In this document: positions 36,415 through 58,957 of the stretch, piece by piece
Layout: each line of letters begins with the position of its first letter
Numbering within the stretch: position 1 is the first letter of the stretch
Source of the DNA: Pararhizobium sp. IMCC3301
GTDB taxonomy: Bacteria; Pseudomonadota; Alphaproteobacteria; Rhizobiales; GCA-2746425
Assembly (NCBI RefSeq): GCF_030758315.1
Contig: NZ_CP132336.1
Location: forward strand, 3,253,001-3,317,000
Direction of reading: 5' to 3'
Length of the DNA stretch: 64,000 bases
Made by a program: the position numbers and the translations under genes
Notes under the pieces: model-generated
Told to the model about the DNA's origin: nothing
The model's database searches: none
Seen by the model: only the letters and a program-made list of their open reading frames with translations

Positions 36415-36491
36415 GGGTGTCCTCCGATACCTGCATTATCTGGATTGGCAATTGCGTCCTGTCTGTCTACAAAACGTCGTCTGCGCACGGA

Positions 36492-36977
36492 TCAGGGTGT
36501 CTGTATGCCCGGTCGCGTCAAGGGCGCAGACATTGCGCCCGACGTGTCACTGCCGGAAGCGCCAGCGTCGGGTCGAGGTGCCATCATCTGCGCGAGCAGC
36601 AGGATCAGCATGACCACGACCCACAGGATAACCTGGGAGCGCTGTTCCGGTGCCATGGACCCGGCCGCATTGCGGACGGTGGTCTGGATGGTGCTTGCCT
36701 GCGGAAGCAGCGCTATCAGCCGTGTCGCGATACCGTGATGGTTGGCGGCCGCGGATGGTACATCCGCGAGCGCCAGGATCATCTCATCCAGCCGATCGGC
36801 CGCGTCTGCCTGTGGCAGATCGGCAAGCGCTTCGGCCTCCTGCCAGGGGTCTACGCCAAATCGCGCCAGCGCAGACAACACGCTGACCAGCGTGCCATTA
36901 CGATCCTCGCCCACAGACGCGAACAGGAAGGCGTTGAACCGCGGGCTCAGCCCACCCAACTTTGCGGATGTGTTCAC
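36492..36977 (-). CDS. Small protein with C-terminal membrane helix (left copy)
   Basis: A 161-residue protein started by GTG 36977, one base beyond the stop of the PRC-barrel gene, so translation is likely coupled. It is mainly helical (RFNAFLFASVGEDRNGTLVS then VLSALARFGVDPWQEAEALA) with one membrane helix near the end (VILWVVVMLILLLAQMM) and a Ser/Ala/Pro tail. I do not recognise a family. Its pairing with the PRC gene in both repeats suggests they work together, perhaps at the membrane. Confidence 0.7.
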   Translation of the reverse strand: MNTSAKLGGLSPRFNAFLFASVGEDRNGTLVSVLSALARFGVDPWQEAEALADLPQADAADRLDEMILALADVPSAAANHHGIATRLIALLPQASTIQTTVRNAAGSMAPEQRSQVILWVVVMLILLLAQMMAPRPDAGASGSDTSGAMSAPLTRPGIQTP

Positions 36978-36978
36978 T

Positions 36979-37785
36979 TTATACGGCTTTCTGCGACTTT
37001 TCCGTGGGGTCGGGATCCGGTTCGGGTCGGGGCTTGGCATAATGCCCGGCCATCCGTTCCTCGTGGGCACGGTCAATCGGATTGGCCGGATCGTAAGGCG
37101 GGCTGTCCTTGACCTTTTGCCGGTCAACGTCGAGGCAGATCAGTTGCTCGGTCCAGCGAATATCCTGCGCCGAGCGGGGCGAGATCAGCACTTTCTGCCC
37201 CATCCACCAGTTGCTTGTATCCACGATCAGGAAATGGATGCTCCAGTCCGTGTCCTCCAGGACGAGGTCGGACAGATGTCCGATCTCTCCGTCGGTGGCG
37301 TGGATGTGATAGCCTGCGACTTCCTCGGCGCTTCGCAGATGCGGCTCGTCCAGATCGTGCTTGTGCCGGTCGATCTCGTCGGTGTAGCGATCCCTTCCGG
37401 GATATCCGCTCATCGGCAGGGCGCCGCCAAACAAGCCATAGCCGCCAAGATAGTAGCCCGATCCCCAATACGGGCTCCACCCATAATAGTCATAGGTCGA
37501 AGTCTCAAACTGCCGCGACACGGGCCGGTGGCTGTCCAACTCGGGGCTGGCCTCAACCTCTGCCTTGGTCAGGCGCACGGGAAAGGTCTTGCGGTTGGGC
37601 TCGGCATGTCCCAGGGCCGAAGGTGGCAACAGCACCTGGCGGCCTGCCAGCCAATTCCCGGTATCGACGAGGAGCCAGCGGATCATCCAGCTGGTGTCAT
37701 CAAAGAGGACATCGCTGAGCGAGCCGATGGTGCCGTCGCTGGCCGCGATGTCATGCCCCCGGATCGACGACAGGTTGAGCAGCAT
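36979..37785 (-). CDS. Double PRC-barrel protein (left copy)
   Basis: A 268-residue protein with two PRC-barrel domains: first MLLNLSSIRGHDIAASDGTI ... WMIRWLLVDTGNWLAG, second HLRSAEEVAGYHIHATDGEI ... WSIHFLIVDTSNWWMG. The linker is very rich in Tyr/Gly/Trp (TYDYYGWSPYWGSGYYLGGY). No signal peptide is seen, so it is probably cytoplasmic or attached to the membrane by its partner. PRC barrels bind proteins or RNA and tune photosystems and ribosome maturation; the role here is unknown. An identical copy lies at 57606-58412. Confidence 0.88.
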   Translation of the reverse strand: MLLNLSSIRGHDIAASDGTIGSLSDVLFDDTSWMIRWLLVDTGNWLAGRQVLLPPSALGHAEPNRKTFPVRLTKAEVEASPELDSHRPVSRQFETSTYDYYGWSPYWGSGYYLGGYGLFGGALPMSGYPGRDRYTDEIDRHKHDLDEPHLRSAEEVAGYHIHATDGEIGHLSDLVLEDTDWSIHFLIVDTSNWWMGQKVLISPRSAQDIRWTEQLICLDVDRQKVKDSPPYDPANPIDRAHEERMAGHYAKPRPEPDPDPTEKSQKAV

Positions 37786-37967
37786 ATCAAATCTCCTTTT
37801 GGTTGGTCCGCCTTGAAAGGCGGGCGGGACGCGATAGCCGCGTCCGGTTCAGGCATGAAGGCCCGTCGCCGGACTGGCGGCTTTGGCTTCGGGCTTGTTG
37901 GGCCCAAACGGGCGGGCGCGCAAATGCACCGATGGTCTCATCATGCGCCATCGCGGTTTGTTACGGG

Positions 37968-37981
37968 CTGATCTGTGTAAG
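37968..37981. promoter_or_regulatory. Palindrome CTGAT-CTGT-GTAAG upstream of the PRC gene (left copy)
   Basis: A site with the 5-4-5 layout seen elsewhere in the island, 183 bases upstream of the PRC-barrel start. It is conserved at 57410-57423 in the right copy. One half is imperfect. Confidence 0.4.
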
Positions 37982-38099
37982 TCAGGTCCGCATATTTCGT
38001 GGCAATCGCTGCGGCCAGATGGCCGACGGTCGACAGGCGCAGTTTCAAGCGGGCCATCGGACGAGCTTGTGAACGTTTAATGTGTCCGTTCTGTTGCCG

Positions 38100-38113
38100 C
38101 TAACCTGGGTTAG
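38100..38113. promoter_or_regulatory. Perfect palindrome CTAAC-CTGG-GTTAG, promoter module (left copy)
   Basis: The palindrome is followed on the plus strand by a module also found, ungapped over about 70 bases, on the minus strand upstream of the DUF4396 fragment (48969-48886): CAGGAT, TTCG..GAACATT.GG and CAGTAT.CCCGAG occur at the same distances. It points toward the DUF2933/arc gene row at 38475. The right copy is at 57278-57291, pointing toward the GAPDH gene. Confidence 0.6.
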
Positions 38114-38474
38114 TGCAGGCGCGCAGGATCTCCGGCAGGGTGAAGTGTGTTCGCCGAACATTAGGTCAATACAGTATTCCCGAGTGCCACAGATACGCGA
38201 ATGCCGGTTTCGACCCGGAAGGGCAATGTCAGACTAAACTGGTCTGTTAGGCTGACGGAAACTCGGTTGTTCTTGTCGGCGGCGCTTTGAAAGGCTTTTC
38301 CCCTTAGAGAACAGACTTTTGCATCCTTCTTTCACAGAAGAAAGCGGCTAAGGAGGGTTCGCATTGATTCTTCTGATGGTGTGGACGGCTCCGCCCGACG
38401 GGCATCGCAACTGAGAACACCGAGGACGCAAAGGAGCGTGAAATTCCAAAGAAATTTCACCAAGGAGAATGCTT

Positions 38475-38732
38475 ATGCGCGACAGAAATTTGCGAGGCGA
38501 TGCAGCGGACTCAGATCCCGAAAAGCCAGAAAACTCGAGCTTCTGGAAATCACGCTTCGGGGTCAGCCTGATCATTTCGTTGGCAATCGCAGCCCTGCTT
38601 CTGGGGTTCGAGCACAGCGTTCACATCTTTGCCGGTAACGGTTTTCTGGTCCTGCTGCTGCTGGGCTGCGGTGTGATGCATCTGTTCATGCATGGCGGTC
38701 ACGGCGCACATGGCGGCGGCGACAATTCATGA
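38475..38732 (+). CDS. DUF2933 membrane protein
   Basis: An 85-residue protein with two membrane helices (FGVSLIISLAIAALLLGFEH and GFLVLLLLGCGVMHLFMHGG) and a C-terminal HGGHGAHGGG patch, the DUF2933 pattern common beside copper-resistance and stress genes. ATG 38475 is preferred to ATG 38469 because AAGGAG then sits seven bases upstream. Its stop overlaps the methyltransferase start (ATGA). It is the first gene of the row that includes arcDABC. Confidence 0.85.
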   Translation: MRDRNLRGDAADSDPEKPENSSFWKSRFGVSLIISLAIAALLLGFEHSVHIFAGNGFLVLLLLGCGVMHLFMHGGHGAHGGGDNS

Positions 38733-39379
38733 CGGATGTACCCGCCTATGGCCTTTGGTTCTTCGCCTTACCGAACGCGGCTATCTTCGTCATGTTCGCC
38801 TATAGCTTCTTCAAGCCACAGACCTCACGTGACTGGCGTAGCTTTGGGGCTTTCAGCGCGTTTCTTGTGGCGCTGTTCTCGGAAATGAATGGCTTTCCGC
38901 TGACCATCTATCTGTTGTCGGGCTGGTTGCAGACCCGTTTTCCGGGCGTCGACTGGTTTTCGCACGATGCCGACCACCTGCCGGAAATGATGTTTGGCTG
39001 GCAGGCCAACCCGCATTTCGGCCCGTTTCACATCCTCAGCTTCGTGCTGATCGGGTTCGGGTTCTGGATGATCTCAGCCGCCTGGCGGGTGCTCTACCAA
39101 GCCCAACTCAGCGGCACTTTGGCGACAGGCGGTCCGTATGCGCAGGTCCGTCACCCGCAATATTTGGGCTTCATTCTGGTATTGACCGGCTTTCTGGTTC
39201 AGTGGCCGACGCTGCTGACCCTGGCGATGTATCCGGTGCTGATCTGGATGTATGTGCGGCTGGCCCGCGCCGAGAAACGCGAAACCCGGGCAAATTTCGG
39301 TGCGCAGTTCGACACCTATGCGGCCCGCGTTCCGGCCTTCGTTCCAGCGCTGACACAAACATATGATGCAACTCAATGA
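38729..39379 (+). CDS. Isoprenylcysteine carboxyl methyltransferase-like membrane protein
   Basis: A 216-residue protein with about five membrane segments and the C-terminal SAM-binding pattern of the ICMT/PEMT family: GGPYAQVRHPQYLGFILVLT followed by QWPTLLTLAMYPVLIWMY. It overlaps the DUF2933 gene by four bases. A related gene lies at 54761-55441. Such proteins methylate lipids or small molecules; the substrate in bacteria is usually unknown. Confidence 0.85.
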   Translation: MTDVPAYGLWFFALPNAAIFVMFAYSFFKPQTSRDWRSFGAFSAFLVALFSEMNGFPLTIYLLSGWLQTRFPGVDWFSHDADHLPEMMFGWQANPHFGPFHILSFVLIGFGFWMISAAWRVLYQAQLSGTLATGGPYAQVRHPQYLGFILVLTGFLVQWPTLLTLAMYPVLIWMYVRLARAEKRETRANFGAQFDTYAARVPAFVPALTQTYDATQ

Positions 39380-39398
39380 CAAAAAAGGAAGTGAGACA

Positions 39399-40847
39399 AT
39401 GACCGACCAGAAAATCAACCCGGACCCCGACGCCGACACCGATGGCGTGGCGTCATGGTTTCCGACTGCTTACACGATCCTGTTCGCGTTGATCGTCATC
39501 GTCGCCGCGCTGACCTGGATCATTCCGGCGGGACAGTATGATCGCGCGACAAACGAACAGGTGGGCCGCGAGGTTGCGGTGCCAGGTACTTATCAGACGG
39601 TCGAACCCAATCCTCAGGGGTTGATCGACGTGCTGCTGGCGCCTACGGCCGGCTTTTACGATCCCGACAGCAATGCTGCAAACGCGATCGACGTGGCGCT
39701 GTTCGTCCTTTTCCTGGGCGGATTCCTCGGCGTGGTGAATGCCACCGGCGCCATCGATACCGGCATTCGGGCCGCGATGCGAAAGCTGAAGGGTCGGGAA
39801 ATTTGGATGATCCCGATCCTGATGTCGCTTTTCGCGCTTGGCGGAACGACTTACGGAATGGCCGAAGAGACGCTGGCATTTTATGCGATCCTCGTGCCGG
39901 TGATGATCGTCGCGGGCTATGATGCCGTCACGGCTGTAGCAATCATCCTGATCGGTGCGGGCATTGGGGTAATGGGATCCACCATTAATCCCTTTGCCAC
40001 GATCATCGCGGCCAATGCCTCGGGGATACCGTTCACCGACGGGCTGATCCTGCGGCTGTTGATCCTGTTGGGCGGACTGGCGATCTCGATCGGCTATGTC
40101 ATGCGCTATGCGACGAAGGTGCGAAAAGACCCGAGCCGGTCTGTGGTCGCAAGACAGCGGGAAGCGCATCGCAAGGCTTTCATCAAAGAAGATGCGATTG
40201 CCGACTCGACGCTTTCCGGCATGCAAAGCATCGTTCTGATCGTGTTCGGCGCGACCTTTGCCGCGATGATCTGGGGCGTGTCCAGCCAAGGCTGGTGGAT
40301 GGCGCAGATGGGTGCGCTGTTCCTTGGTGCGGCCATCGTGATCGGCCTGATCGCCCGCCTGGGCGAAAAGGGATTGACAGGTGCCTTCGTGGACGGCGCG
40401 CGCGATCTTCTGGGTGTCGCGCTGGTGATCGGCCTTGCCCGCGGCATCGTCGTGATCATGGAGCAGGGGCTGATCGCCGACACGATCCTGAACGCTGCCG
40501 CAAACACGCTTGGCGGCTTGCCCGAACTGGGCTTCATCAACACCATGTTCGCCATCGAGGTCGGGATGAGCTTTTTCGTGCCGTCCTCCTCCGGCCTTGC
40601 AGTACTGTCGATGCCTATTCTGGCGCCGCTCGCCGATTTTGCGGGAGTCGGGCGTGACCTTGTCGTGACAGCCTATCAATCGGCAAACGGTCTTGTGAAT
40701 CTGGTCAACCCGACCTTCGCGGTGGTCATCGGCGGCCTCGCCATCGGGCGCGTCCCGTTCGAGCGCTGGATCGTGTTCATCTGGCCGCTGCTTCTCATCC
40801 TTACCCTTTTCATCATGGCGGCGCTCAGCCTTGCCACATTGTTTTGA
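39399..40847 (+). CDS. arcD: YfcC/ArcD-type membrane transporter of the arginine deiminase operon
   Basis: A 482-residue polytopic carrier of the YfcC / C4-dicarboxylate anaerobic carrier family. Marks are WIIPAGQYDRAT near residue 45, GGTTYGMAEETLAFYAILVP near 160, MGSTINPFATIIAANASG near 205 and SFFVPSSSGLAVLSMPILAP near 400. It sits directly before arcA with 12 bases between, so it probably exchanges arginine for ornithine, which is inferred from position. ATG 39399 follows GGAAG; an earlier in-frame ATG at 39363 overlaps the previous gene. Confidence 0.85.
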   Translation: MTDQKINPDPDADTDGVASWFPTAYTILFALIVIVAALTWIIPAGQYDRATNEQVGREVAVPGTYQTVEPNPQGLIDVLLAPTAGFYDPDSNAANAIDVALFVLFLGGFLGVVNATGAIDTGIRAAMRKLKGREIWMIPILMSLFALGGTTYGMAEETLAFYAILVPVMIVAGYDAVTAVAIILIGAGIGVMGSTINPFATIIAANASGIPFTDGLILRLLILLGGLAISIGYVMRYATKVRKDPSRSVVARQREAHRKAFIKEDAIADSTLSGMQSIVLIVFGATFAAMIWGVSSQGWWMAQMGALFLGAAIVIGLIARLGEKGLTGAFVDGARDLLGVALVIGLARGIVVIMEQGLIADTILNAAANTLGGLPELGFINTMFAIEVGMSFFVPSSSGLAVLSMPILAPLADFAGVGRDLVVTAYQSANGLVNLVNPTFAVVIGGLAIGRVPFERWIVFIWPLLLILTLFIMAALSLATLF

Positions 40848-40859
40848 TCGGAGACAATC

Positions 40860-42089
40860 ATGATTGAACATAAACTTGGCGTGCATTCGGAAACCGGCAC
40901 GCTTCGGCAAGTGATCGTATCGCCGCCTGGCCTCGCACATCGTCGTCTGACGCCGGACAATCGCGAAGACCTGCTGTTCGACGATGTGTTCTGGGTCAAG
41001 CAAGCGATTCAGGACCATGGCGTCTTCGCGGACATTATGCGCGGCGAAGATGTCGAAGTGCTGGACGCCATGGTGCTTCTGGCCGAAACGCTGGAAAATT
41101 CCGACGCGCGTGCCTGGGTGCTCGACCACCGCATCACCCGCAATGATGTGGGCGTCGGAATGCGGGGCGACCTGCGGGCCTGGATGGAGGAATTGCTGGG
41201 TGCCGATCTGGCGCGGTTCCTCGTCGGCGGGATCACGGTGAACGATCTTCCCTTCACCCCGTCCGGCATGTTCGGAAGCTACCTTGGCCTGCACGGTTTC
41301 GTGCTGCCGCCGCTGCCGAATTTCATTTTCACACGGGACAATTCCGCCTGGGTTTATGGCGGCGTTACACTGAACCCAATGCATTTTGCAGCGCGGCGGC
41401 CCGAAACGCTGTTGCTGGCGGCTGTCTATCGCTTTCATCCGACATTTGCGGGTAAGGTAAGGGTCTGGTTCGGTGATCCGGCGCAGGAGTTTGGCGCAGC
41501 AACGCTGGAGGGGGGCGACATAATGCCTATCGGGCATGGTGTGGTCATGGTGGGCATGGGTGAACGATCAACCCCGCAGGCGGTCGGACAATTGGCCGAG
41601 GCCTTGTTCGAGGGGGGCGATGTTCACCGCGTCATCGCCTGCCAGATGCCAAGCTCGCGCGCAGCGATGCACCTAGACACGGTGTTTACGCACTGCGGCG
41701 GCGATGTCGTGACCACCTTCAAGGAGGTGGCTGATGCAATTACCAGTTACGACCTGCGTCCCGGTTCGGGAAGCACACCGCTCGATATTCGCCGCGATGC
41801 GCGGCACCTGTTCGAGATCACTGCCGAAATTCTGGGTTACAAGAAGCTGCACTTGGTTCCCACCGGCGGGTCCGACGCAGCAGAGCAATCGCGCGAGCAA
41901 TGGAACGACGGCAACAACGTGCTGGCGCTGCGCCCCGGCGTCGTCATCGGCTACGACCGCAATGACGATACGAATGCTGCGCTGAAAGCCGCCGGAATCG
42001 AAGTGCTGGCCATCCCCGGTGCCGAACTCGGTCGTGGCCGTGGTGGCAGCCACTGCCTGAGCTGCCCGACCATCCGGGACGCAATCTGA
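40860..42089 (+). CDS. arcA: Arginine deiminase
   Basis: A 409-residue enzyme converting arginine to citrulline and ammonia. Active-site motifs are present: [18 protein letters not shown] (Asp), [14 protein letters not shown] (Glu), [15 protein letters not shown] (His, Asp) and the C-terminal [13 protein letters not shown] with the nucleophile cysteine. Length is that of the family. Together with arcB and arcC it makes a full ATP-yielding pathway. Confidence 0.97.
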
Positions 42090-42102
42090 AAAAGGAAAAC
42101 AC

Positions 42103-43104
42103 ATGTCTTACAATCTGCGAAACCGCCACTTCCTGACATTGCGCGACTTCAGCCCGCAGGAAATCGACTTTCTGCTAAAACTATCTGCCGATCTAAAGGC
42201 GGCGAAATACGGTGGCTACGAAGTGCCGCGCCTGATCGGCAAGGAGATCGCGCTGATCTTCGAAAAGGACAGCACCCGCACCCGTGTCGGCTTCGAGGTG
42301 GCGGCCCATGATCAGGGCGCACATGTCACCTATCTCGGCCCGTCCGGATCTCATCTTGGCAAGAAAGAAACCGTCAAGGATACCGCGCGCGTACTGGGTC
42401 GGGTCTATGATGCGATCGAATATCGCGGCTTTGGACAACCCATAATCGAGACGCTGGCAAAATATGCGGGAGTGCCGATCTACAACGGATTGACGGACGA
42501 ATTTCACCCGACGCAGATCCTCGCCGATTTCCTGACCATGTCAGAGCATTCCGATAAACCCCTGCGCCAGATTTCTTATGCATTCCTAGGAGATGCGGGA
42601 AACAACATGGGCGACAGCCTGTTGATCGGCGGAGCCAAGATGGGCATGGACGTGCGTCTGTGTGCACCCAAGGCCTGCTGGCCGGATCAGGCTATACAGG
42701 ACGAAGCGCAGTTTATCGCCAAAGAGACTGGCGCACAGATCACGATCACCGACGATGTGATGGAGGCCGTGAAGGACGCCGATTTCATTTACACCGACGT
42801 CTGGCTTTCGATGGGCGAGTCGAAGGACAAGTGGGAGGAACGTATCCGGCAGTTGCTCCCTTATCAGGTCAATGCCGAAGTGATGGCGCAAACCGGCAAT
42901 TCACAAACGAAATTTATGCATTGCCTGCCCGCTTTCCACAATGCCGACACCGAGGTCGGTGCAGAGATCGCCAAGCTCTTCGACATCACCGCAATGGAAG
43001 TGACCGAAGAGGTGTTCGAAAGCCCGGCCTCCATCGTGTTCGATCAGGCGGAGAACCGTTTGCACACCATCAAGGCGGTGCTTGTCGCCACGCTGGGGGG
43101 TTAG
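42103..43104 (+). CDS. arcB: Ornithine carbamoyltransferase, catabolic
   Basis: A 333-residue enzyme with the carbamoyl-phosphate motif [14 protein letters not shown], the [13 protein letters not shown] loop, and the ornithine-site MHCLPAFHN. The arrangement behind arcA indicates the catabolic form that splits citrulline into ornithine and carbamoyl phosphate. It starts 13 bases after arcA and ends two bases before arcC. Confidence 0.96.
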
Positions 43105-43106
43105 GA

Positions 43107-44018
43107 ATGCTGGTGGTCGCAGCCCTCGGGGGTAATGCGCTGTTGCAACGTGGACAGCCCATGACGGTCCGCAACCAGCGTGACAACGCGCAGATCGCCG
43201 CGAGGGCTCTCGCCGTCATACTGCGGGCAGGGCACCGGTTGGTGATCACGCATGGCAACGGGCCACAGGTCGGGCTTCTGGCGCTACAGAACCCGACCGA
43301 GGATGGCTATCCGCTGGATGTTCTGGGGGCTGAAACGGCGGGAATGATCGGCTATTTGATCGAACAGGAGCTAGAAAACGCTCTGGAACACGACCGCCCC
43401 GTCGCCACGCTGCTGACGCAGGTCGTGGTGGACCGCAATGATCCGGCATTCGGCACCCCGACCAAATTCGTGGGACCGGGCTACGATCGCCCGCAGGCGC
43501 AAGCCATGGCCGACGCAAACGGCTGGAAAATCGCTCTGGATGGCGCGAAATGGCGCCGCGTGGTGGCCTCGCCTGCGCCGCGCGAGATTCCCGATACTCG
43601 CGTTATTCAGTTGTTGCTCGATGCTGGTGTCGTGGTCATCTGCACCGGCGGCGGCGGCATTCCGGTGATCCGGCAGGGTGATGGCAGTCTGACCGGGATC
43701 GAAGCAGTGGTGGACAAGGACGCATCAAGCGCCCTGCTGGCCCGGTCACTGGGTGCGGATGTGCTGTTGCTGTTGACCGACGTCGATGGTGTCTACCGGG
43801 ATTTCGGATCGGACAACGCCGTGAGACAATCATGGCTGTCACCGCAAGACGCATTGCAATTCGACGCGCCTGCAGGATCGATGGCCCCAAAACTATTGGC
43901 CGCGGCAGCATTTGCCGAAACAGGTGGATTGGCAGGTATCGGGCGATTGCAGGACGCGACCGAGATCATGAACAAAACTGCCGGCACCCGGATTTCTGAA
44001 CACACTCCGGGTAGGTGA
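43107..44018 (+). CDS. arcC: Carbamate kinase
   Basis: A 303-residue kinase that transfers phosphate from carbamoyl phosphate to ADP, giving one ATP per arginine. It shows VVAALGGNALLQRGQPM at the N-terminus, LVITHGNGPQVGLLALQ, VVICTGGGGIPVI and KDASSALLARSLGADVLLLL. ATG 43107 with AGGA before it is the clear start; the frame is open further upstream only as a shadow of arcB. Confidence 0.96.
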   Translation: MLVVAALGGNALLQRGQPMTVRNQRDNAQIAARALAVILRAGHRLVITHGNGPQVGLLALQNPTEDGYPLDVLGAETAGMIGYLIEQELENALEHDRPVATLLTQVVVDRNDPAFGTPTKFVGPGYDRPQAQAMADANGWKIALDGAKWRRVVASPAPREIPDTRVIQLLLDAGVVVICTGGGGIPVIRQGDGSLTGIEAVVDKDASSALLARSLGADVLLLLTDVDGVYRDFGSDNAVRQSWLSPQDALQFDAPAGSMAPKLLAAAAFAETGGLAGIGRLQDATEIMNKTAGTRISEHTPGR

Positions 44019-44155
44019 GAAATGTCAATTTCGGAGAAGCAGAGAAGCGAGATGGAAACTCATGGATATATAGCGGTGCCGTCGGCGCGCCACAGGCGAC
44101 CGCCGCACTCTTGTCTCTAGACGCGAGGGCGAAGCAAGCTGGTGCTAGGCAAACA

Positions 44156-44174
44156 GCACGGGACATTCCCGTGC
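44156..44174 (+). terminator. Possible hairpin terminator after arcC
   Basis: GCACGGG-ACATT-CCCGTGC forms a perfect 7-bp stem with a 5-base loop, followed by GCATTTATTA. The T-rich tail is weak. It lies 138 bases past arcC and between convergent genes, a sensible place for a terminator. Confidence 0.45.
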
Positions 44175-44252
44175 GCATTTATTACGCAGGATAATGTAGA
44201 TCAGATGCAGCGTGTCAAGCCCCGCCAGCAGTCAGAAAAACAAAGCATAGGC

Positions 44253-44822
44253 TTACCGCAGAAACAGGATGTCGACGAAAACCACGACTACGATCGTCAG
44301 CGCGAACCAGCGCATGTGTAGATAGGTCGTGATCAGCGACGGCACGATGATCAAGAGCAAGAAGATCACATAGGTCATATCGCGTGGCATCAGATAATCC
44401 AGGATCTTCGTGCCCTCGTAGACTAGTGAATCTTGATTGACAGTGACTTGGACCCACTCCGGATTGGTCAGATGCCGCACATAAAGTGCAAGCCCGAAGG
44501 CAAGTCCCGCCAACGTCATCGCCAGTATGTAGGGCCGTCGGCGGCTGCCGCTCGGCTCCAGCACATAGCTGGAAAGCGGAACCCAGAACGGCCACATGAA
44601 CCAGGTGAAAAAGATGAATACCAACGCGCCCAGCAGTGTCGTACCGGGGTCGCCGGTATTGATGCCCCACCAGACGTTGCCTTCCATGAACTGTTGCAGG
44701 GCTCGCAAATAGCTGGCTCGTTCCCGACCAAGGAGGCGGCCACGGAGCTGATCTATCTGGCTATCCGCGTCTTCGAGAAAGGCGGTAGAAATGTCCGCGA
44801 ATAGTTTATCGCCCGCAATCAA
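44253..44822 (-). CDS. DUF6629-like membrane protein with an altered N-terminus
   Basis: From about residue 40 the protein matches DUF6629-type membrane proteins: LQQFMEGNVWWGINTG, FFTWFMWPFWVPLSSYVLEP followed by SGSRRR, and later helices. The first 40 residues (GDKLFADISTAFLEDADSQI DQLRGR) are a hydrophilic helical segment instead of the family's usual CFS-containing membrane start. The frame is open further upstream without an ATG, and the start used is TTG. I suspect a deletion joined two genes. Confidence 0.6.
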   Translation of the reverse strand: MIAGDKLFADISTAFLEDADSQIDQLRGRLLGRERASYLRALQQFMEGNVWWGINTGDPGTTLLGALVFIFFTWFMWPFWVPLSSYVLEPSGSRRRPYILAMTLAGLAFGLALYVRHLTNPEWVQVTVNQDSLVYEGTKILDYLMPRDMTYVIFLLLIIVPSLITTYLHMRWFALTIVVVVFVDILFLR

Positions 44823-45112
44823 TTTGCTATCATGTTCGACGAGCGCTTCAAGGCGTGACCGTATCTGAAACCCGCATGGGCCGGGCCAGATACATAGAGT
44901 TCATGACACTCCGGCTGTCACCGACTCTGCAGACGGACGGATCGAACCCCCACAACAGGCAGAGGCTTGCGCAAAGCTCGAATCTCGTGCCTGAGAACTC
45001 GACTACAGCCTTGCCGAACTCACCGGCGTCGAAGGCAGAGCCGCGCATATTCCGGCCTTATCCGAGCCATCGGTGCAGGTGCCGTTGAAAATGCGCAGGT
45101 GAGAGTGCTTCT

Positions 45113-49496: not shown

Positions 49497-49670
49497 TCAT
49501 GTTGTTCCGTTGACTTCATGCGTTTATTTATCTTGCTGCCCGGTCGTCTTCAGGAAGTCGGCAGGTGGCTGTAAATGACCCGCGACCCAGAGAGCCGCCC
49601 GTTCTTCGGCCGGAGCCAAAGGCGAGACTGCGCGGCGCGGGGTCGAATGCGCCTTTATGGGCCGACCGGA

Positions 49671-50453: not shown

Positions 50454-50507
50454 GACAGGTTCCTTCCCGGTTTTCGATTGGATTCAAGACGCACTTTTGC
50501 GCCAGGT

Positions 50508-51254
50508 TTACTTGAAATGTGGCAGGTAGTCGTGCACCACCTTGCCCAGCCCCAGCGTGAGATCGGCCAGAATATGACTGGCCGACAGCACCTCGAGCAC
50601 CGGCAGATTCGCCACCGGCGCCAAGGCATGGCCATGCAGTTCCAGCGCCGCTGGTCCGCTCCATGCGCCCTTTACCGTCACGTCCTCCAGGTAATATTCG
50701 ACCAGTTCGCAAATGCGCGGCGTACAGTCGACATGCGGGATGATCTTCAGCAGATAGCTGGGTGCCAGCAGACTTTGCCGCACCTGCTGGAAATCCAGTT
50801 CGCGATGCTTGTAGCCCATCGTGCCGCTGGCGACCTGGATCGAGCCGACATTGAGCGTGCCGACCAGCGTGTCCTTCTCGACGTGCAAGCAGGGCTCGGC
50901 CAGTTTCTTGGGGAATCCCCAAATCTCGCGCCCGCCGGAAATCGGGCTATCGTCGTTCAGATACATCGCATGGACATAGCCGCCCTTGCGGCCTTCGAAA
51001 CTGACCGGGATCACTTGGCCGCTCTCGGTGTAATCGCCAAAACCGGTGGAATCCGGCATCCGGATGAATTCGTATTTCACCACTGGTCCGGTCACTTCCA
51101 GCGGCTCCGGAACCACCGCCCGCAGGGCATCCATATCCGTGCGATAGGTGATGACCATGTATTCGCGGTTGGCGAATTTATACGGCCCCGGCGGATAGGA
51201 CGGATTGGTCAGCGGCATTGCGAAGGCGGTATCGCGGATCTGTTGCAGGTTCAT
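50508..51254 (-). CDS. adc: Acetoacetate decarboxylase
   Basis: A 248-residue decarboxylase with the Schiff-base lysine motif [15 protein letters not shown] near residue 115 and the family's [16 protein letters not shown] and [20 protein letters not shown]. It turns acetoacetate to acetone and CO2, consuming a proton. It lies 54 bases before the 3-hydroxybutyrate dehydrogenase gene. Confidence 0.94.
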
Positions 51255-51266
51255 GTGGTGTCTCCG

Positions 51267-52382
51267 TCAGGTTGGCTGTTTTGCCCGCGATTTTGTCAGA
51301 TCGAATACCCGGACATGGACGGTGTCCTTGTGGCGCGCTTTCCAGTCCGGGTGGTTGAGCGTGGTGATCACATCCCGTTCGCCGTCCCGCCAGTGGTCAA
51401 GCACCGAGGCCCGTGAGAACTCGTAGTCTTTGGACTGCTTTTCGTGTCTGGTCTGCCGGTAGATCAGATGCGCGATGGTGATGTCGGGATCTCGGTCATT
51501 CGACAGCAGCGCACGCGCGTCGGGATCGTTGCGCAATTCGGGCGGCAGTTTGCCATACAACCGTCTGTCCGCATCGCGTCTCACATGCATGTAGCACAGC
51601 AAATCGGTGTTCAGCCGGGTCCGGCTGGAAAAGCGGATTTCCTTGGTGCGCGCCTCGATGTCCCAGATCGAAGTCGGCATCTTGCCGCGTGCGTTGAACA
51701 AATCGACCTGAAAGATGCACAGGTCTGCGTCGGACCGTTCGTCATAAACATATTGCAGCGGCGTGTTCGACACCAACCCGCCGTCCCAGTAGAACGCGCC
51801 GTCGATCTCGACGGCGGGAAACCCCGGCGGCAGAGCGCCGCTGGCCATGATATGATCGGGCGTGATCGTCTGTTTTGCGCTGTCGAACCACGTCATGTTG
51901 CCGGTCTCGACATTGACCGCACCGACGCAAAGGCGGACTGCACCGGCGTTGAGATAGTCGAAATCCGCAAGCTCCAGCAGGGTTTCGCGTAACGGCGAGG
52001 TGTCATAGAAACTGTTGGCACCGATACTTCCGGCAGGCATCATCGCAGCCGGCGGAAAGCGTGGTGAAAAGAATCCCGGCACACCCTGCGCCATCGTCGC
52101 GGCGGCGCTCAGTTCGTTGTAGAACCCGCGCGGCATCAGGCCGGCGAGGAAAGGCATTGCGGCGCTTCCGGACGATACCAGATCCCAGAATGCCCGCAGC
52201 CTTTCGACGCGGCGCTCGGGTGGATTGCCAGCGATCAGCGCTGCGTTGAACGCTCCGATGGAAACCCCTGCGACCCATTCCGTCCGCCGCCCGCTGGCAA
52301 ATAGCGCCTCGTAGGCGCCGGCCTGGTAGGCACCTAGCGCGCCACCGCCCTGCAACACCAGTACGTTTTGTTCGGTTCCCAT
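51267..52382 (-). CDS. Patatin-like phospholipase
   Basis: A 371-residue lipid hydrolase with the oxyanion loop LVLQGGGALGAYQAGAYEAL, nucleophile VAGVSIGAFNAALIAG and the Asp dyad AFYWDGGLVSNTPLQY. A C-terminal DUF3734-like part follows (KEIRFSSRTRLNTDLLCYMH). ATG 52382 fits the family; an ATG at 52400 adds six residues. It heads the operon with adc and bdhA and has been found with PHB metabolism genes elsewhere, where some patatins act as PHB or lipid hydrolases. Confidence 0.9.
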   Translation of the reverse strand: MGTEQNVLVLQGGGALGAYQAGAYEALFASGRRTEWVAGVSIGAFNAALIAGNPPERRVERLRAFWDLVSSGSAAMPFLAGLMPRGFYNELSAAATMAQGVPGFFSPRFPPAAMMPAGSIGANSFYDTSPLRETLLELADFDYLNAGAVRLCVGAVNVETGNMTWFDSAKQTITPDHIMASGALPPGFPAVEIDGAFYWDGGLVSNTPLQYVYDERSDADLCIFQVDLFNARGKMPTSIWDIEARTKEIRFSSRTRLNTDLLCYMHVRRDADRRLYGKLPPELRNDPDARALLSNDRDPDITIAHLIYRQTRHEKQSKDYEFSRASVLDHWRDGERDVITTLNHPDWKARHKDTVHVRVFDLTKSRAKQPT

Positions 52383-52560
52383 GGGAATAATGCACTCCAC
52401 GCGATTATTGTGATTACATCTTCAAGCTATTGAGCGGCAGGCAACATTCAAGTGAAACGCCAATTAAGCGGCCAATTCTTACTGCGGGTCCTGCATTGTC
52501 GATCCAAATACAGATATTTTAACAATGGTACTTTGCACACTGAACTACAAGGTCGCCGCA

Positions 52561-52764
52561 ATGACCAACACGACGTCTCCACCAGATATGCCGGATGTGC
52601 CAGATATGCCTGACTTTCACAACCCTGAGGTCGTGACTGCGCTGGTCCGCAACCGCAATCCTTATCTGGCTCGCCGTTTGCATGAATTGTCCGAAGTATG
52701 GTTGCAACGATTACGCCTGCCATTCGGACAAAATGCACATTTGACCAGGATTGGTGCGAACTGA
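52561..52764 (+). CDS. Small hypothetical protein (low support)
   Basis: A possible 67-residue protein with the repeated DMPDVPDMPDF segment and FHNPEVVTALVRNRNPYLAR. I recognise no family. The start could be at 52525. It may be a remnant, since the last 25 residues change in character. Confidence 0.3.
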   Translation: MTNTTSPPDMPDVPDMPDFHNPEVVTALVRNRNPYLARRLHELSEVWLQRLRLPFGQNAHLTRIGAN

Positions 52765-52924
52765 GATCCTCCGATAATCGGTGATCCGGGCGATCGCAGG
52801 TGATCGCGCCAGATCCTGCGCTACAGTAATGTTCTCGGATGAACAGCGTCTCCAATATATTCGCCTCAGGTAAGCATCTTGATCGGTGTGCCCGCGCGGA
52901 GCGATATTTGTCAGAGAGTGCGCG

Positions 52925-53146
52925 ATGCAATGGATTGTTGACAACTGGTTTCTGGTCCTGCTGATCGGAGGATTTATCGTGATGCATCTGTTTCATGGTC
53001 ACGGCGGCGGTCACGGAAATGGATCGCGCCATCGCGAGCCCGAAGACCAACGCGACCAGGATCTACACGAAGATCAGAGGCGCTCCAACACCGATGAGAC
53101 TGCGGCCGATCCGAACGCTGACCCACCGCGTGACGAGCAGCGCTGA
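52925..53146 (+). CDS. Small His/Gly-rich membrane-anchored protein (DUF2933-like)
   Basis: A 73-residue protein: one helix (WIVDNWFLVLLIGGFIVMHL F) then GHGGGHGNGSRHRE and a very charged, Asp/Arg-rich tail. It resembles the protein at 29044-29325 in both layout and context, since each is beside an FAD oxidoreductase-CBS-cfa module. It may bind metal at the membrane. Confidence 0.68.
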   Translation: MQWIVDNWFLVLLIGGFIVMHLFHGHGGGHGNGSRHREPEDQRDQDLHEDQRRSNTDETAADPNADPPRDEQR

Positions 53147-53194
53147 GGGGCGGCGGGATGCTCAGGTACAGCAAGGACGTAGACGACAGAAGCA

Positions 53195-53348
53195 TAGCAT
53201 GAACCTCGACGTGCGCCGACTGGTGAAACGGGATGCCGGGGAACTGGGCCTACCGGCTTTCGCTGCCCAGGCACCTGTTGCTTCCGTTCGCTCGGCGCCG
53301 GTATCGCGCGCCGTTGGCCGATCCAAGCTGCAGCCATGCCGACTGTGA
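53195..53348 (+). pseudogene. FAD oxidoreductase C-terminal remnant
   Basis: Two short frames match the end of the FAD oxidoreductase at 27825: MNLDVRRLVKRDAGELG, then after one frameshift LPRHLLLPFARRRYRAPLAD with PSCSHADCE. The order remnant, CBS, cfa-fragment is the same as the module at 25704-28997, so this is a second, decayed copy on the other strand. Confidence 0.75.
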
Positions 53349-53438
53349 ATGAGTCTGGTGCACGCACGACGAGCACGAAAGCACGGTCGCCGTTGCTCCG
53401 TGATCCAAGAGCGAAAACTGAGACGAAAGGAAATTGCC

Positions 53439-54134
53439 ATGTTGGTCAAAGACGTCATGACGAAAAAGGTCGTCACCGTGACACCCGAAACCCGGATTGA
53501 GGAAATTGTCCGCCTGTTTCTCAAACACCATATCAGCGGCGTACCCGTAGTGGATGAGGCGGGTGCCGTCGCAGGACTGGTCAGCGAGGGTGATCTGATG
53601 CGCCGGGTCGCCGATGCGCCGCGCCGGTCCTGGTGGCTTGAACTTTTCGCTGGTGACGGGACCAGCGCAGCCGACTATGTGAAAGCCCACGGTCGGCAGG
53701 CCCGTGATGTGATGACGCGCGAAATGATCACCCTGCCAGAGGACACGCCGGTCGGCCGTGCGGCGGCGGTGCTTGAAAAACACCGGATGAAGCGGATTCC
53801 GGTTCTGCGCGACGGCAAGCTTGTCGGGATCGTCAGCCGGAGCAACCTGTTGCAGGGCCTGTCGGTGGCTTCTGCCATTCCCGAGCCCAGCGCCGATGAG
53901 CGCGTGATACCGGCCCGCATCCTTGAGGCTTTGGCTGACGTGCCGGGAATTCAGGTGTCTTTGGTCAATGTGGTGGTCAACGACGGCGTCGCCAGCATTT
54001 ACGGCATGGTCGAAACGATTTCGAGGCCAACGCCATCCGCTTGGCCGCCGAAGAGGCCGTGGGCGAAGGTAAGGTCGAAATCCAGTTGGGCCGCCTTCCG
54101 GCGTGGGGCTACGGCTATGGCATTTGACGCTTAA
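53439..54134 (+). CDS. CBS-pair/BON protein with late frameshift
   Basis: A 231-codon frame from ATG 53439 (GAAAGGAA upstream). CBS1 has VKDVMTKKVVTVTPETR and ISGVPVVDEAGAVAGLVSEG, CBS2 has MKRIPVLRDGKLVGIVSRSN, and the BON domain starts VPGIQVSLVNVVVNDGVASI. After GMVE (about 54013) the frame changes: the other frame continues DFEANAIRLAAEEAVGEGKV then EIQLGRLPAWGYGYGI, ending at 54127, exactly as in the relative at 27110. One missing base there spoils the last 40 residues, or it is a sequencing error. Confidence 0.8.
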   Translation: MLVKDVMTKKVVTVTPETRIEEIVRLFLKHHISGVPVVDEAGAVAGLVSEGDLMRRVADAPRRSWWLELFAGDGTSAADYVKAHGRQARDVMTREMITLPEDTPVGRAAAVLEKHRMKRIPVLRDGKLVGIVSRSNLLQGLSVASAIPEPSADERVIPARILEALADVPGIQVSLVNVVVNDGVASIYGMVETISRPTPSAWPPKRPWAKVRSKSSWAAFRRGATAMAFDA

Positions 54135-54186
54135 AACTACTGTGTTCCGCCGAAATATGCTGGTTTTTAAAAAGTGAGATTATGTA

Positions 54187-54780
54187 ATGACGATGACTTC
54201 ACAAAGCCCGTCAGTGTCCCGGCCGCTCGGGCGCCGCACCTGGTTTTCCGAAGCGGTGCTAAAAACCGCTTTGGCGCGGATCATCCGGAACGGAACGATG
54301 ACCCTGCGGCTGCCCGATGGCCGTAGTCTGAGCTTTGGCAGCGGCTCTGGACCCGAACATATCGTCGTCGCCGCGGACAATGCCGTGCTCTACGCCGCGG
54401 ACGCGGATCCGGGCAACGTGCTGGAACTGTCGCTGAACGACGGCTCTGTTTTGCGCAGCTTTGTCATTGGCGGCGAGTTGCACGGGCTGGACCTGTCAGA
54501 CAATCGCACGACCTCATTTATTGCCGGTCGTGGCAAAGTCAAGATCGCGGCGTTTGCACTCTCAACCGGAACCATCGCGTTCGCACGCCTGTCACCGGAA
54601 CCCTACCGTCTGACCAACGTGCCCGGGACCGGTACATTCTTTGTCTCGTCCCGGGCGGAACCAAAGGTCTGGATTGTGGATGAGATAACACTGGCTGCCG
54701 TGAAAGAATTTCCGGTCGAAGGTGAAACGCACCAGATGACAACAATCGACCGGGATACAGATGGATCAACCCATGAATGA
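54187..54780 (+). CDS. Chimera: cyclopropane synthase N-terminus joined to a beta-propeller-like protein
   Basis: Residues 20-58 (FSEAVLKTALARIIRNGTMT then LRLPDGRSLSFGSG) match the start of the cfa product at 27059. After about residue 60 the protein changes to beta-propeller-like repeats (LYAADADPGNVLELSLNDGS, AAFALSTGTIAFARL, VWIVDEITLAAVKEFPVEG). The catalytic part of the synthase is absent. The frame is open throughout, so a 197-residue hybrid could be made. It overlaps the next gene by 20 bases. Confidence 0.65.
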   Translation: MTMTSQSPSVSRPLGRRTWFSEAVLKTALARIIRNGTMTLRLPDGRSLSFGSGSGPEHIVVAADNAVLYAADADPGNVLELSLNDGSVLRSFVIGGELHGLDLSDNRTTSFIAGRGKVKIAAFALSTGTIAFARLSPEPYRLTNVPGTGTFFVSSRAEPKVWIVDEITLAAVKEFPVEGETHQMTTIDRDTDGSTHE

Positions 54781-55441
54781 ATCGTTTAATCACGCTGGAG
54801 CCTGGGGTATCACACTGATCGTTGCCGTCTTGGTGTCTTGGTTCTTCTATCGTTATTTCGCGCCGAAGAACTGGCGGGAATGGGTCGGCGCTGGGGTGGT
54901 TGAGGCTTTTATCATCGCGCTTTATGCAGAAATGTACGGCTTTCCGCTCACCATCTATCTGTTGGTGCGTTTTTTCGGCCTGGACAGCGAATATGTTAGC
55001 GCCAGCCTGTGGTCTTCCTTGGTAGGGCTCGGCGAAACCGGCATGATGATCTCAATGTTGCTTGGCTATGCGCTCGCTTTCATCGGTGTAGGACTTTTTG
55101 CTCAGGGCTGGCGTCAAGTCCACAAGGCACGAGGTGAAGACCGTCTGGAGACAGATGGCTTGTATGCGTATGTGCGACATCCGCAGTACACAGGGCTGTT
55201 TATTGCTCTGTTCGGAGAAGGAGTGGTGCATTGGCCAACGCTTTTCTCGGTCGGCCTTTTTCCAGTGATCGTATTTGTCTACACATGGCTGGCTCGGCGT
55301 GAGGAACAGCAGGTTCTCAAGCAGTTCGGCGAGGCATACCGCGCCTATCAGCGGCAGGTGCCAATGTTCATCCCTCGTTGGGGCCGCTGGCGTAAACTCG
55401 CTGCCGCTTCGCGAGACAGCAGTGATGATGAGGCAGCGTGA
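54761..55441 (+). CDS. Isoprenylcysteine carboxyl methyltransferase-like membrane protein
   Basis: A 226-residue protein with about five membrane segments and the family's C-terminal motif LYAYVRHPQYTGLFIALFGE then GVVHWPTLFSVGLFP. It shares EMYGFPLTIYLL with the related protein at 38729, so the two are paralogues. ATG 54773 is an alternative start. It is followed by about 200 bases without a gene. Confidence 0.85.
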   Translation: MDQPMNESFNHAGAWGITLIVAVLVSWFFYRYFAPKNWREWVGAGVVEAFIIALYAEMYGFPLTIYLLVRFFGLDSEYVSASLWSSLVGLGETGMMISMLLGYALAFIGVGLFAQGWRQVHKARGEDRLETDGLYAYVRHPQYTGLFIALFGEGVVHWPTLFSVGLFPVIVFVYTWLARREEQQVLKQFGEAYRAYQRQVPMFIPRWGRWRKLAAASRDSSDDEAA

Positions 55442-55639
55442 AGCATTTTCTCATGCAGCACGCTCATTGCTCGGACGGGTAGACAACTGTCCGCTGGTTT
55501 ATGAGTGCGCCGTGCAATATCGAAAGAAGAGTTCGAACATGGTCGACCCGGATACAGCCACACATTCCTTACGCATCGGCCCGTTGGGCAACAGTTTGTC
55601 GTTGCTACTGTTTACTAGTTATCTATTGTACGGGCGCTA

Positions 55640-55957
55640 TCAGATTTCGGGGGCCCAGGCAAGAAACGCAGCCTTGTAAGTTGCAAGCCGGGCCGTCGCT
55701 TCGACAGTTGCGACCACACCCTGCATTTCGTTCACCTCGCTGGCCGAAATGCACACCGGCAAGTTGGCGAACAGGTGGGTCTTGGGGCGGATGAACGTCT
55801 CGCAAAACTCCGGGTCACCGGCCTCGTGCTCCAGCGCCTCGCAGAGCGACCGACCGTCGAGCGTGACGCAGAAACAGTTCTGGTTCAGCCGTTCCGAGAG
55901 GGTCTGAACTGAACCCGAGGATGGGAGGTTTGAGTTGCTCATCGAGTGCATAGCCAT
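55640..55957 (-). pseudogene. N-terminal fragment, possibly of a circularly permuted ATP-grasp protein
   Basis: A 105-codon frame with LNQNCFCVTLDGRSLCEALE, THLFANLPVCISASEVNEMQ and ATYKAAFLAWAPEI, ending abruptly at TGA 55640. It resembles, from memory, the first 100 residues of a long ATP-grasp-like family whose body carries the ligase motifs, all absent here. The family call is tentative; that it is a truncated piece is more certain. Confidence 0.45.
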
Positions 55958-56015
55958 GTCTGCACCCTGACCGGACGTGCTTCAAGTCCGAGGTGGGCGT
56001 CGAATAATCTGACGA

Positions 56016-57071
56016 TCATCGTTGCCCCAGCAATTCGGTCAGCAGGCCGATACCGAGCGCTGCATCAGTTTTGGCGATCGATTCTTCGGCGTTGCTGATC
56101 GTTCCAGTTAGTGCCCGGATCGCGTCGATCGTCTCGGGAATGACGATCGCCTGATTGTCGACCATGTAAACGTAGAATAACTCGTCCCCTTCGACTTTCA
56201 GCATGTCCGACCACAGCGCCACCTCGTAAAGATTGTCATGCGGCCGACCGAGGTCGGCCATGAGTTCCTTGACTACGTTGAGAGCAGTCAATCCGGCATC
56301 CATGCGGATCAAGGCGATCCGGGACGATGCGGCAAAGGCGTCGAGCACTTCTTCCCTGGAGGCCGGCCGGGTCAACTGCACCGACCAGTAGTGCAAATGC
56401 GCCAGGGTCTCCGCCACCTTGACCGCCATCGTGATGACATCAAAGTCGGGGTCGACGCTCTGCGCATCCGGCCCTTGATGACTGGGAATCTCGGGCTCGG
56501 GGACCAGCGTGTTCATGATCCCGCCGAGGTGACTTTCCCACGGGTCCGTCGCCCGGCGCAGCAACGTCCCGCGCGCGCGGCGTAGCAGGCCCGCATGCTT
56601 CAGCGCAGTAAGGGTTCTGACGATCGAGGTTGTGTTGCAGGAGACGACGCGCGTACTTTCCCGGTTCAACGCGCTCGAATAGCTGGCCTCGGCGACGAAG
56701 GAGTGTCCGGTCACCTCGTGCTTCTCGCCACCATGGACAATGAACTTGATGCCACGTTGTCGATAGATGTCGACGTTGACCGCCGCGATCCGCTTTGGCG
56801 TGCAATCAACCACCAGATCACTCGCCTCGAGCAGATCATCGAGGCTCCCCGCGATATCGAGACCGGCGTTCCGCATCGCCTCTGAATGGTCCTCGGTGGC
56901 CGCGAAAAGGCGGAAGCCCTTCTGCATCGCCATGCGCGGGCGCCAGTCGACACTGATGTCTGCTACCCCGGCGAGTTCCATGTCGTCCTGCCGGGCCACG
57001 GCGTCGGCGACACGCTTTCCGATCACGCCGTAGCCGTTGACGGCGACCCGGATCTTTTTCGCTGAGTTCAT
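56016..57071 (-). CDS. Type II (archaeal-type) glyceraldehyde-3-phosphate dehydrogenase
   Basis: A 351-residue enzyme with the type II start IRVAVNGYGVIGKRVADAVA, the catalytic cysteine in VVSCNTTSIVRTL, and HLGGIMNTLVPEPEIPSHQG DA near 190. Type II enzymes are typical of archaea and rare in bacteria, where GapA-type enzymes do glycolysis. ATG 57071 has AAGGAG six bases upstream. Its promoter lies in the right large repeat. With phosphoketolase nearby, it may run the lower part of a phosphoketolase route. Confidence 0.9.
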   Translation of the reverse strand: MNSAKKIRVAVNGYGVIGKRVADAVARQDDMELAGVADISVDWRPRMAMQKGFRLFAATEDHSEAMRNAGLDIAGSLDDLLEASDLVVDCTPKRIAAVNVDIYRQRGIKFIVHGGEKHEVTGHSFVAEASYSSALNRESTRVVSCNTTSIVRTLTALKHAGLLRRARGTLLRRATDPWESHLGGIMNTLVPEPEIPSHQGPDAQSVDPDFDVITMAVKVAETLAHLHYWSVQLTRPASREEVLDAFAASSRIALIRMDAGLTALNVVKELMADLGRPHDNLYEVALWSDMLKVEGDELFYVYMVDNQAIVIPETIDAIRALTGTISNAEESIAKTDAALGIGLLTELLGQR

Positions 57072-57277
57072 CTGCTTCTCCTTGCGCCGGAAGCACACCG
57101 CTGTAGCGCCGCCGACAAGAACAACCGAGTCACCGTCAGCCTAACAGACCAGTTTAGTCTGACATTGCCCTTCCGGGTCGAAACCGGCATTCGCGTATCT
57201 GTGGCACTCGGGAATACTGTATTGACCTAATGTTCGGCGAACACACTTCACCCTGCCGGAGATCCTGCGCGCCTGCA

Positions 57278-57291
57278 CTAACCCAGGTTAG
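57278..57291. promoter_or_regulatory. Perfect palindrome CTAAC-CCAG-GTTAG, promoter module (right copy)
   Basis: Mirror of 38100-38113. Here the module points along the minus strand to the GAPDH gene, whose start is 207 bases away. Confidence 0.6.
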
Positions 57292-57409
57292 CGGCAACAG
57301 AACGGACACATTAAACGTTCACAAGCTCGTCCGATGGCCCGCTTGAAACTGCGCCTGTCGACCGTCGGCCATCTGGCCGCAGCGATTGCCACGAAATATG
57401 CGGACCTGA

Positions 57410-57423
57410 CTTACACAGATCAG
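57410..57423. promoter_or_regulatory. Palindrome CTTAC-ACAG-ATCAG upstream of the PRC gene (right copy)
   Basis: Mirror of 37968-37981, 183 bases upstream of the PRC-barrel start at 57606. Confidence 0.4.
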
Positions 57424-57605
57424 CCCGTAACAAACCGCGATGGCGCATGATGAGACCATCGGTGCATTTGCGCGCCCGCCCGTTTGGGCCCAACAAGCCC
57501 GAAGCCAAAGCCGCCAGTCCGGCGACGGGCCTTCATGCCTGAACCGGACGCGGCTATCGCGTCCCGCCCGCCTTTCAAGGCGGACCAACCAAAAGGAGAT
57601 TTGAT

Positions 57606-58412
57606 ATGCTGCTCAACCTGTCGTCGATCCGGGGGCATGACATCGCGGCCAGCGACGGCACCATCGGCTCGCTCAGCGATGTCCTCTTTGATGACACCAG
57701 CTGGATGATCCGCTGGCTCCTCGTCGATACCGGGAATTGGCTGGCAGGCCGCCAGGTGCTGTTGCCACCTTCGGCCCTGGGACATGCCGAGCCCAACCGC
57801 AAGACCTTTCCCGTGCGCCTGACCAAGGCAGAGGTTGAGGCCAGCCCCGAGTTGGACAGCCACCGGCCCGTGTCGCGGCAGTTTGAGACTTCGACCTATG
57901 ACTATTATGGGTGGAGCCCGTATTGGGGATCGGGCTACTATCTTGGCGGCTATGGCTTGTTTGGCGGCGCCCTGCCGATGAGCGGATATCCCGGAAGGGA
58001 TCGCTACACCGACGAGATCGACCGGCACAAGCACGATCTGGACGAGCCGCATCTGCGAAGCGCCGAGGAAGTCGCAGGCTATCACATCCACGCCACCGAC
58101 GGAGAGATCGGACATCTGTCCGACCTCGTCCTGGAGGACACGGACTGGAGCATCCATTTCCTGATCGTGGATACAAGCAACTGGTGGATGGGGCAGAAAG
58201 TGCTGATCTCGCCCCGCTCGGCGCAGGATATTCGCTGGACCGAGCAACTGATCTGCCTCGACGTTGACCGGCAAAAGGTCAAGGACAGCCCGCCTTACGA
58301 TCCGGCCAATCCGATTGACCGTGCCCACGAGGAACGGATGGCCGGGCATTATGCCAAGCCCCGACCCGAACCGGATCCCGACCCCACGGAAAAGTCGCAG
58401 AAAGCCGTATAA
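57606..58412 (+). CDS. Double PRC-barrel protein (right copy)
   Basis: Identical in sequence to the product of 36979-37785: two PRC-barrel domains and a Tyr/Gly/Trp-rich linker, 268 residues. AAGGAG lies six bases before the ATG. It is followed at once by the small membrane-protein gene. Identity of the two copies points to recent duplication or ongoing gene conversion. Confidence 0.88.
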   Translation: MLLNLSSIRGHDIAASDGTIGSLSDVLFDDTSWMIRWLLVDTGNWLAGRQVLLPPSALGHAEPNRKTFPVRLTKAEVEASPELDSHRPVSRQFETSTYDYYGWSPYWGSGYYLGGYGLFGGALPMSGYPGRDRYTDEIDRHKHDLDEPHLRSAEEVAGYHIHATDGEIGHLSDLVLEDTDWSIHFLIVDTSNWWMGQKVLISPRSAQDIRWTEQLICLDVDRQKVKDSPPYDPANPIDRAHEERMAGHYAKPRPEPDPDPTEKSQKAV

Positions 58413-58413
58413 A

Positions 58414-58899
58414 GTGAACACATCCGCAAAGTTGGGTGGGCTGAGCCCGCGGTTCAACGCCTTCCTGTTCGCGTCTGTGGGCGAGGATCGTAATGGCACG
58501 CTGGTCAGCGTGTTGTCTGCGCTGGCGCGATTTGGCGTAGACCCCTGGCAGGAGGCCGAAGCGCTTGCCGATCTGCCACAGGCAGACGCGGCCGATCGGC
58601 TGGATGAGATGATCCTGGCGCTCGCGGATGTACCATCCGCGGCCGCCAACCATCACGGTATCGCGACACGGCTGATAGCGCTGCTTCCGCAGGCAAGCAC
58701 CATCCAGACCACCGTCCGCAATGCGGCCGGGTCCATGGCACCGGAACAGCGCTCCCAGGTTATCCTGTGGGTCGTGGTCATGCTGATCCTGCTGCTCGCG
58801 CAGATGATGGCACCTCGACCCGACGCTGGCGCTTCCGGCAGTGACACGTCGGGCGCAATGTCTGCGCCCTTGACGCGACCGGGCATACAGACACCCTGA
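58414..58899 (+). CDS. Small protein with C-terminal membrane helix (right copy)
   Basis: Identical to the product of 36492-36977, 161 residues from GTG 58414, one base after the PRC stop. Helical body, one membrane helix near residues 120-140, and a Ser/Ala/Pro-rich end. No family recognised. Confidence 0.7.
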   Translation: MNTSAKLGGLSPRFNAFLFASVGEDRNGTLVSVLSALARFGVDPWQEAEALADLPQADAADRLDEMILALADVPSAAANHHGIATRLIALLPQASTIQTTVRNAAGSMAPEQRSQVILWVVVMLILLLAQMMAPRPDAGASGSDTSGAMSAPLTRPGIQTP

Positions 58900-58957
58900 T
58901 CCGTGCGCAGACCCGGATGCGCCCATCGCCCCGGTGATGGTGCCGTCAGTCAACAGG

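Follow-up and report, generated by a model that had tools for sequence, protein, structure and literature searches.

A near-identical inverted repeat in a genomic island of Pararhizobium sp. IMCC3301, best read as an inverted duplication that puts a shared control region in front of two metabolic units

Does a pair of long inverted repeats in the genome of Pararhizobium sp. IMCC3301 act as a genetic switch? The window analysed here, a stretch of 64,000 nucleotides (contig NZ_CP132336.1, positions 3,253,001 to 3,317,000), contains two inverted copies of a unit with two genes, the first of which encodes a PRC-barrel protein. A sequence-only reading of the window had proposed that the 18.8-kb segment between the copies could flip and thereby exchange its outer and inner neighbours. 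The anatomy is right for such an event, since near-identical inverted repeats of 1.8 kb are an ample substrate for homologous recombination, but no opposite orientation was seen and the consequence of a flip would be weaker than the proposal implied. The best reading is that of an ordinary inverted duplication, either new or homogenised not long ago, by which two metabolic units come to stand behind a single control region.

With one copy reverse-complemented, the two copies aligned over 1808 bp with two mismatches, exactly at the proposed coordinates (Table 1), a match for which chance cannot account. The mismatches are adjacent (38259-38260, AA versus TG) and lie 26-28 bp from the inner end of the repeat. 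Beyond the repeat ends, paired positions agree at chance level only, 63/200 on the outer side and 48/200 on the inner side. When the whole genome (4,583,537 bases in one contig) was searched, the repeat was found at exactly two places, with no third copy. The pair has the length and identity of recombination-prone long inverted repeats, which are near identical over at least several hundred bp. The contents announced for the enclosed segment, namely the arginine deiminase (arc) operon, lipid-type genes and a type II GAPDH gene, were also borne out.

Table 1. Position of the repeat copies, their genes and palindromes, the neighbouring genes and the left end of the island (window coordinates; aa, amino acids)
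Feature	Position	Strand	Remarks
tRNA-Phe, left island end	9966..10040	+	
Tyrosine integrase of the island, adjoining tRNA-Phe	10131..11207	-	Pfam Phage_integrase 3.3e-17
Transposase	12607-13869		
Cupin gene, left outer neighbour	35995..36414	-	
Left repeat copy: PRC-barrel gene, 161-aa gene and ~500 bp upstream	36479..38286	-	
161-aa protein, left copy	36492..36977	-	no Pfam or NCBIfam family
PRC-barrel protein, 268 aa, left copy	36979..37785	-	Pfam PRC 2.8e-9
Crp/Fnr-like palindrome, left repeat	38100..38113	+	second, weaker site 37968
Enclosed segment, 18,818 bp	38287..57104		
DUF2933, methyltransferase, YfcC-type carrier, arcA, arcB, arcC, inward from left copy	38469..44018	+	
Type II GAPDH gene, inward from right copy	56016..57071	-	ATG at 57071 (alternative GTG 57098)
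Right repeat copy, inverted	57105..58912	+	2 mismatches
Crp/Fnr-like palindrome, right repeat	57278..57291	-	second, weaker site 57410
PRC-barrel protein, right copy	57606..58412	+	
161-aa protein, right copy	58414..58899	+	mirror of left copy
Outer flank of right copy	58956..59031	+	72% over 76 bp like the Cypionkella stretch between 161-aa gene and ADH
Copper-type P-ATPase, right outer neighbour	59085..61514	+	

The effect of a flip would depend on how the genes around the repeats are oriented. The arc operon, whose first gene begins 182 bp inward of the left copy, and the GAPDH gene, whose ATG stands 33 bp from the right copy, both read inward, and the PRC-barrel/161-aa operon of each repeat reads outward. 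Because the repeats are identical and the genes are oriented in this way, inversion would leave every neighbouring gene with an unchanged upstream sequence. What precedes the arc operon and the GAPDH gene would thus stay as it is; an on/off switch is therefore unlikely, and a flip would probably change little. RecA-mediated flipping of the 18.8-kb segment is plausible, no flip having been observed, and the GC skew showed no usable trace of a recent one.

Invertons are short inverted repeats served by a site-specific recombinase, and they share with this locus a potentially invertible DNA bounded by inverted repeats. Here, in contrast, the repeats measure 1.8 kb, the control region lies within them, and Pfam or NCBIfam scans of 23 candidate genes in the enclosed block revealed no recombinase or transposase family; the integrase of the island is ~25 kb away. 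As far as the scanned genes show, the pair therefore does not fit the classical inverton, with its short repeats and nearby recombinase. In an inverton, a promoter would meet a different gene after inversion, whereas the region upstream of both inner units here, in which promoters are only predicted, is the same repeat. Ribosomal RNA operons and copies of insertion sequences also mediate inversions by homologous recombination. Among published cases, PMC6778178 describes the reversible inversion of hsdMS in S. aureus by recombination between repeated genes, with a phenotype, and PMC9584773 attributes inversions to homologous recombination between repetitive elements; according to PMC12863080, transposable elements are main drivers of inversions. 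Our locus has in common with inversions by homologous recombination between repeated sequences the kilobase-sized, near-identical repeats flanking a segment, and differs in that the repeat is a metabolic or stress operon in an island and that no inversion was seen. Broad literature searches, which do not show the repeat to be undescribed, yielded nothing that we recognised as this repeat.

The repeat extends 13 bp past its second gene and, in the other direction, to ~500 bp before the start of the PRC-barrel gene. Both copies indeed carry the same two genes, as the sequence-only reading had it, though the second is shorter than its open reading frame: it most likely starts at the GTG at 36977 and would encode 161 rather than 211 aa, because in the Cypionkella homologue the aligned codon is an ATG, shortly preceded by a stop. 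In Cypionkella, one operon copy carries a frame-shift in its second gene (10659-11290 of the contig), which is open in the other copy. Of 394 genomes of the Cypionkella family that were searched, 62 have relatives of the 161-aa protein, mostly 34-45% identical among the matches listed, and a search of viral contigs found no relative. An insertion sequence or composite transposon was rejected: Pfam and NCBIfam scans found no transposase or recombinase family in either gene, and by eye no terminal inverted repeats were seen and the two ends are unlike each other. Nor is it a known RNA, as judged by the lack of an Rfam match at gathering score in 34000-62000.

The inner part of each copy is the candidate control region. 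It had been described as containing two promoters per copy, which were not confirmed as sigma-70 sites: no consensus match was found in 36300-38600. The duplication comprises the entire upstream region, including an exact and a weaker copy of a palindrome, CTRAYNNNNRTYAG, which we take to be of the Crp/Fnr type by its likeness to Fnr-like boxes. Exact copies in the island lie at 13890, 34148 (before an ADH gene), 38100, 48956, 57278 and 58958 (before the copper ATPase), i.e., six against 0.41 expected. The count was four versus 0.42 expected on the Cypionkella contig, and zero versus 0.19 and one versus 0.62 in the left and right host flanks, respectively. With one mismatch allowed, the palindrome also matches inside the YfcC gene (39510). 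When the classical Fnr-box pattern was used and one mismatch was tolerated, 12 sites were counted versus 5.24 expected, a figure that says little as it covers the whole window including the host part. A gene of the Crp/Fnr family is present in the island just past the window (66927-67655 in extended coordinates), and is 62% identical to the gene of this family beside one of the Cypionkella copies. An exact 19-bp element, ATGATTCCGAAAATCTGAA, was also noted at 34091 and 59010, upstream of the ADH gene and the copper ATPase and ~40 bp from the palindrome; a copy with three mismatches precedes ADH in Cypionkella.

As only 33 bp separate the GAPDH gene from the repeat, it most likely takes its promoter from there. 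A further idea is that of a promoter capture, in which the inverted copy would be that of a bidirectional, Crp/Fnr-controlled operon, one of whose arms now drives both the arc operon and the type II GAPDH gene, in a symmetric layout whose co-regulation inversion cannot break. We regard this extension as tentative and rather doubtful.

Comparison with other genomes had been suggested as a way to find the opposite orientation, and it provided none. The repeat DNA was absent from all 40 other genomes tried, including the four congeners, so that only the genome itself carries it (1/41), and none of the genomes examined has the whole block beside the PRC-barrel/161-aa operon. The PRC-barrel protein itself has matches with E <= 1e-40 in 7/385 genomes sampled from the class and with E <= 0.001, many of them weak, in 64/397 sampled from the order, the genome of origin being included in both counts. 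At 58 loci, several of them overlapping and many no longer than 2.5-4 kb, a PRC relative aligned over 180 aa or more; one of these loci contained arc genes, one a phospholipase D relative and none GAPDH (E <= 1e-5). In two other genomes, with five and three PRC copies, the copies are only 38-74% alike. In all three Roseovarius plasmids read, a metal P-ATPase gene stands directly before the arc operon, a place taken by the repeat in the window; two of the three have DUF2933 and the methyltransferase between P-ATPase and YfcC. The one PRC locus with arc genes is on a Roseicitreum plasmid, which carries a PRC gene (55% identical) with an arc operon ~4 kb further on the same strand and lacks the P-ATPase-then-arc order; this different layout does not bear on the flip. 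On a Methylophaga plasmid, relatives of the PRC-barrel protein (38%) and of GAPDH (75%) are encoded ~8 kb apart. One congener has an arc operon of its own (C1:2239554-2240765; arcA 72% identical), and in the 40 kb fetched around it the other window genes tested were not there, apart from a distant SDR homologue.

How did the two copies arise? We consider a recent inverted segmental duplication, and not a dedicated switch, to be the probable explanation. A repair or recombination event would have set down a second operon, inverted, ~19 kb away from the original; either copy may be the older. RecA-dependent crossing over could then turn the 18.8-kb segment around, as rarely as with other kilobase-sized inverted repeats, and this should be nearly neutral because each repeat is a complete unit, with an outward operon and an inward regulatory arm. 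As a lasting effect, a single type of upstream region with Crp/Fnr-like boxes would stand before both the arc operon and GAPDH. The identity, ends and copy number of the repeat, the lack of terminal repeats and of transposase or recombinase families in the genes scanned, the different gene before the arc operon in the Roseovarius plasmids, the excess of the palindrome in the island and the Crp/Fnr-family gene there all count for this reading. Two features of the sequence speak for a new duplication: no diverged homology persists past the repeat ends, and the inner arm was copied too, including ~255 bp that have no match in Cypionkella and are nonetheless identical in the two copies apart from the two differences. 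These same features count against the possibility, which we find unlikely but worth retaining, that two old paralogous operons, one in each place, were recently made alike by gene conversion. In its favour stands Cypionkella psychrotolerans, where two copies of the unit lie on one contig, 19.3 kb apart and in direct orientation; they are 74% alike, and 76% and 78% like the unit of the window. One is followed by an ADH gene and the other by a PRC331 gene, in a neighbourhood that is a mosaic and whose copper ATPase is only 43% identical. A segment that inverts actively and changes gene expression by its orientation, as in phase variation, appears very improbable to us. The repeats and their geometry would permit inversion, for which hsdMS is a precedent, but to the neighbours the two orientations are equivalent, because the repeats are identical and contain inward as well as outward units, and neither a recombinase family in the scanned genes nor the opposite orientation came to light.

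Several observations nevertheless weigh against a plain duplication that shares out a control region. Both differences lie close to one end of the repeat, which would occur by chance in ~3% of cases (3.1%) if there had been a single event; this post hoc argument slightly favours homogenisation by conversion. Furthermore, the outer contexts of the copies seem to match, in part, those of two distinct copies in Cypionkella. A cupin gene and PRC331 come after the left copy; outside the right copy the DNA is ADH-like, sharing an exact 19-bp element with the region upstream of the window's ADH gene; the ADH and PRC331 genes of the window both lie to the left of the left copy. Two different contexts would fit two old copies made alike by conversion, but the ADH-like element may be just a control region that the island uses more than once. 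Three sites of the palindrome had been seen before it was chosen, and two of the six island sites are the two repeat copies; among 23 PRC loci of relatives, it is found within 400 bp upstream in only one (at one locus, only 239 bp were available). One may finally ask whether the assembly is wrong, with only one real copy or a segment placed in the wrong orientation. This is extremely improbable, given a single contig, different unique flanks on all four sides and two base differences between the copies. As to the earlier alternative of recent duplication or ongoing exchange, recent duplication and conversion cannot be told apart from one genome, and the position of the mismatches only tips slightly towards conversion.

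The repeats sit inside an island of ~65 kb bounded by tRNA-Phe and by a 19-bp copy of its 3' end (10024-10042), which recurs at 75009 in window coordinates, past the end of the window. Integrative genomic islands targeted to tRNA genes are a known class, and this one has its usual parts, namely a tRNA gene (tRNA-Phe), an adjacent tyrosine integrase and a direct repeat of the tRNA end; nothing about it is unusual, and parts of the cargo resemble modules on alphaproteobacterial plasmids. In 4-kb steps, its G+C content is 56-64%, against 54-57% in the left host flank. The tRNA-Phe end looks like a site of varied insertions, because in all four congeners the left flank is conserved beside tRNA-Phe, whereas the right flank (75010-84000) had no match in the 20 kb fetched there. 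Within the enclosed segment, a phospholipase D and an endonuclease/phosphatase (45113-47448) are 89% and 84% identical to a pair of proteins encoded on a Hoeflea plasmid, a sign of module exchange. The island also contains three older paralogous pairs, 69-80% identical (15043-17887/30111-33899, 27110-27719/53528-54127 and 21777-22011/48975-49209). All three are inverted, like the main repeat, and are too few for a test.

These results suggest that long inverted repeats are not necessarily switches: where each repeat contains a whole unit with inward and outward parts, a flip is expected to be silent. If the promoter capture were true, it would give islands a simple means of placing separate modules under a common regulator.

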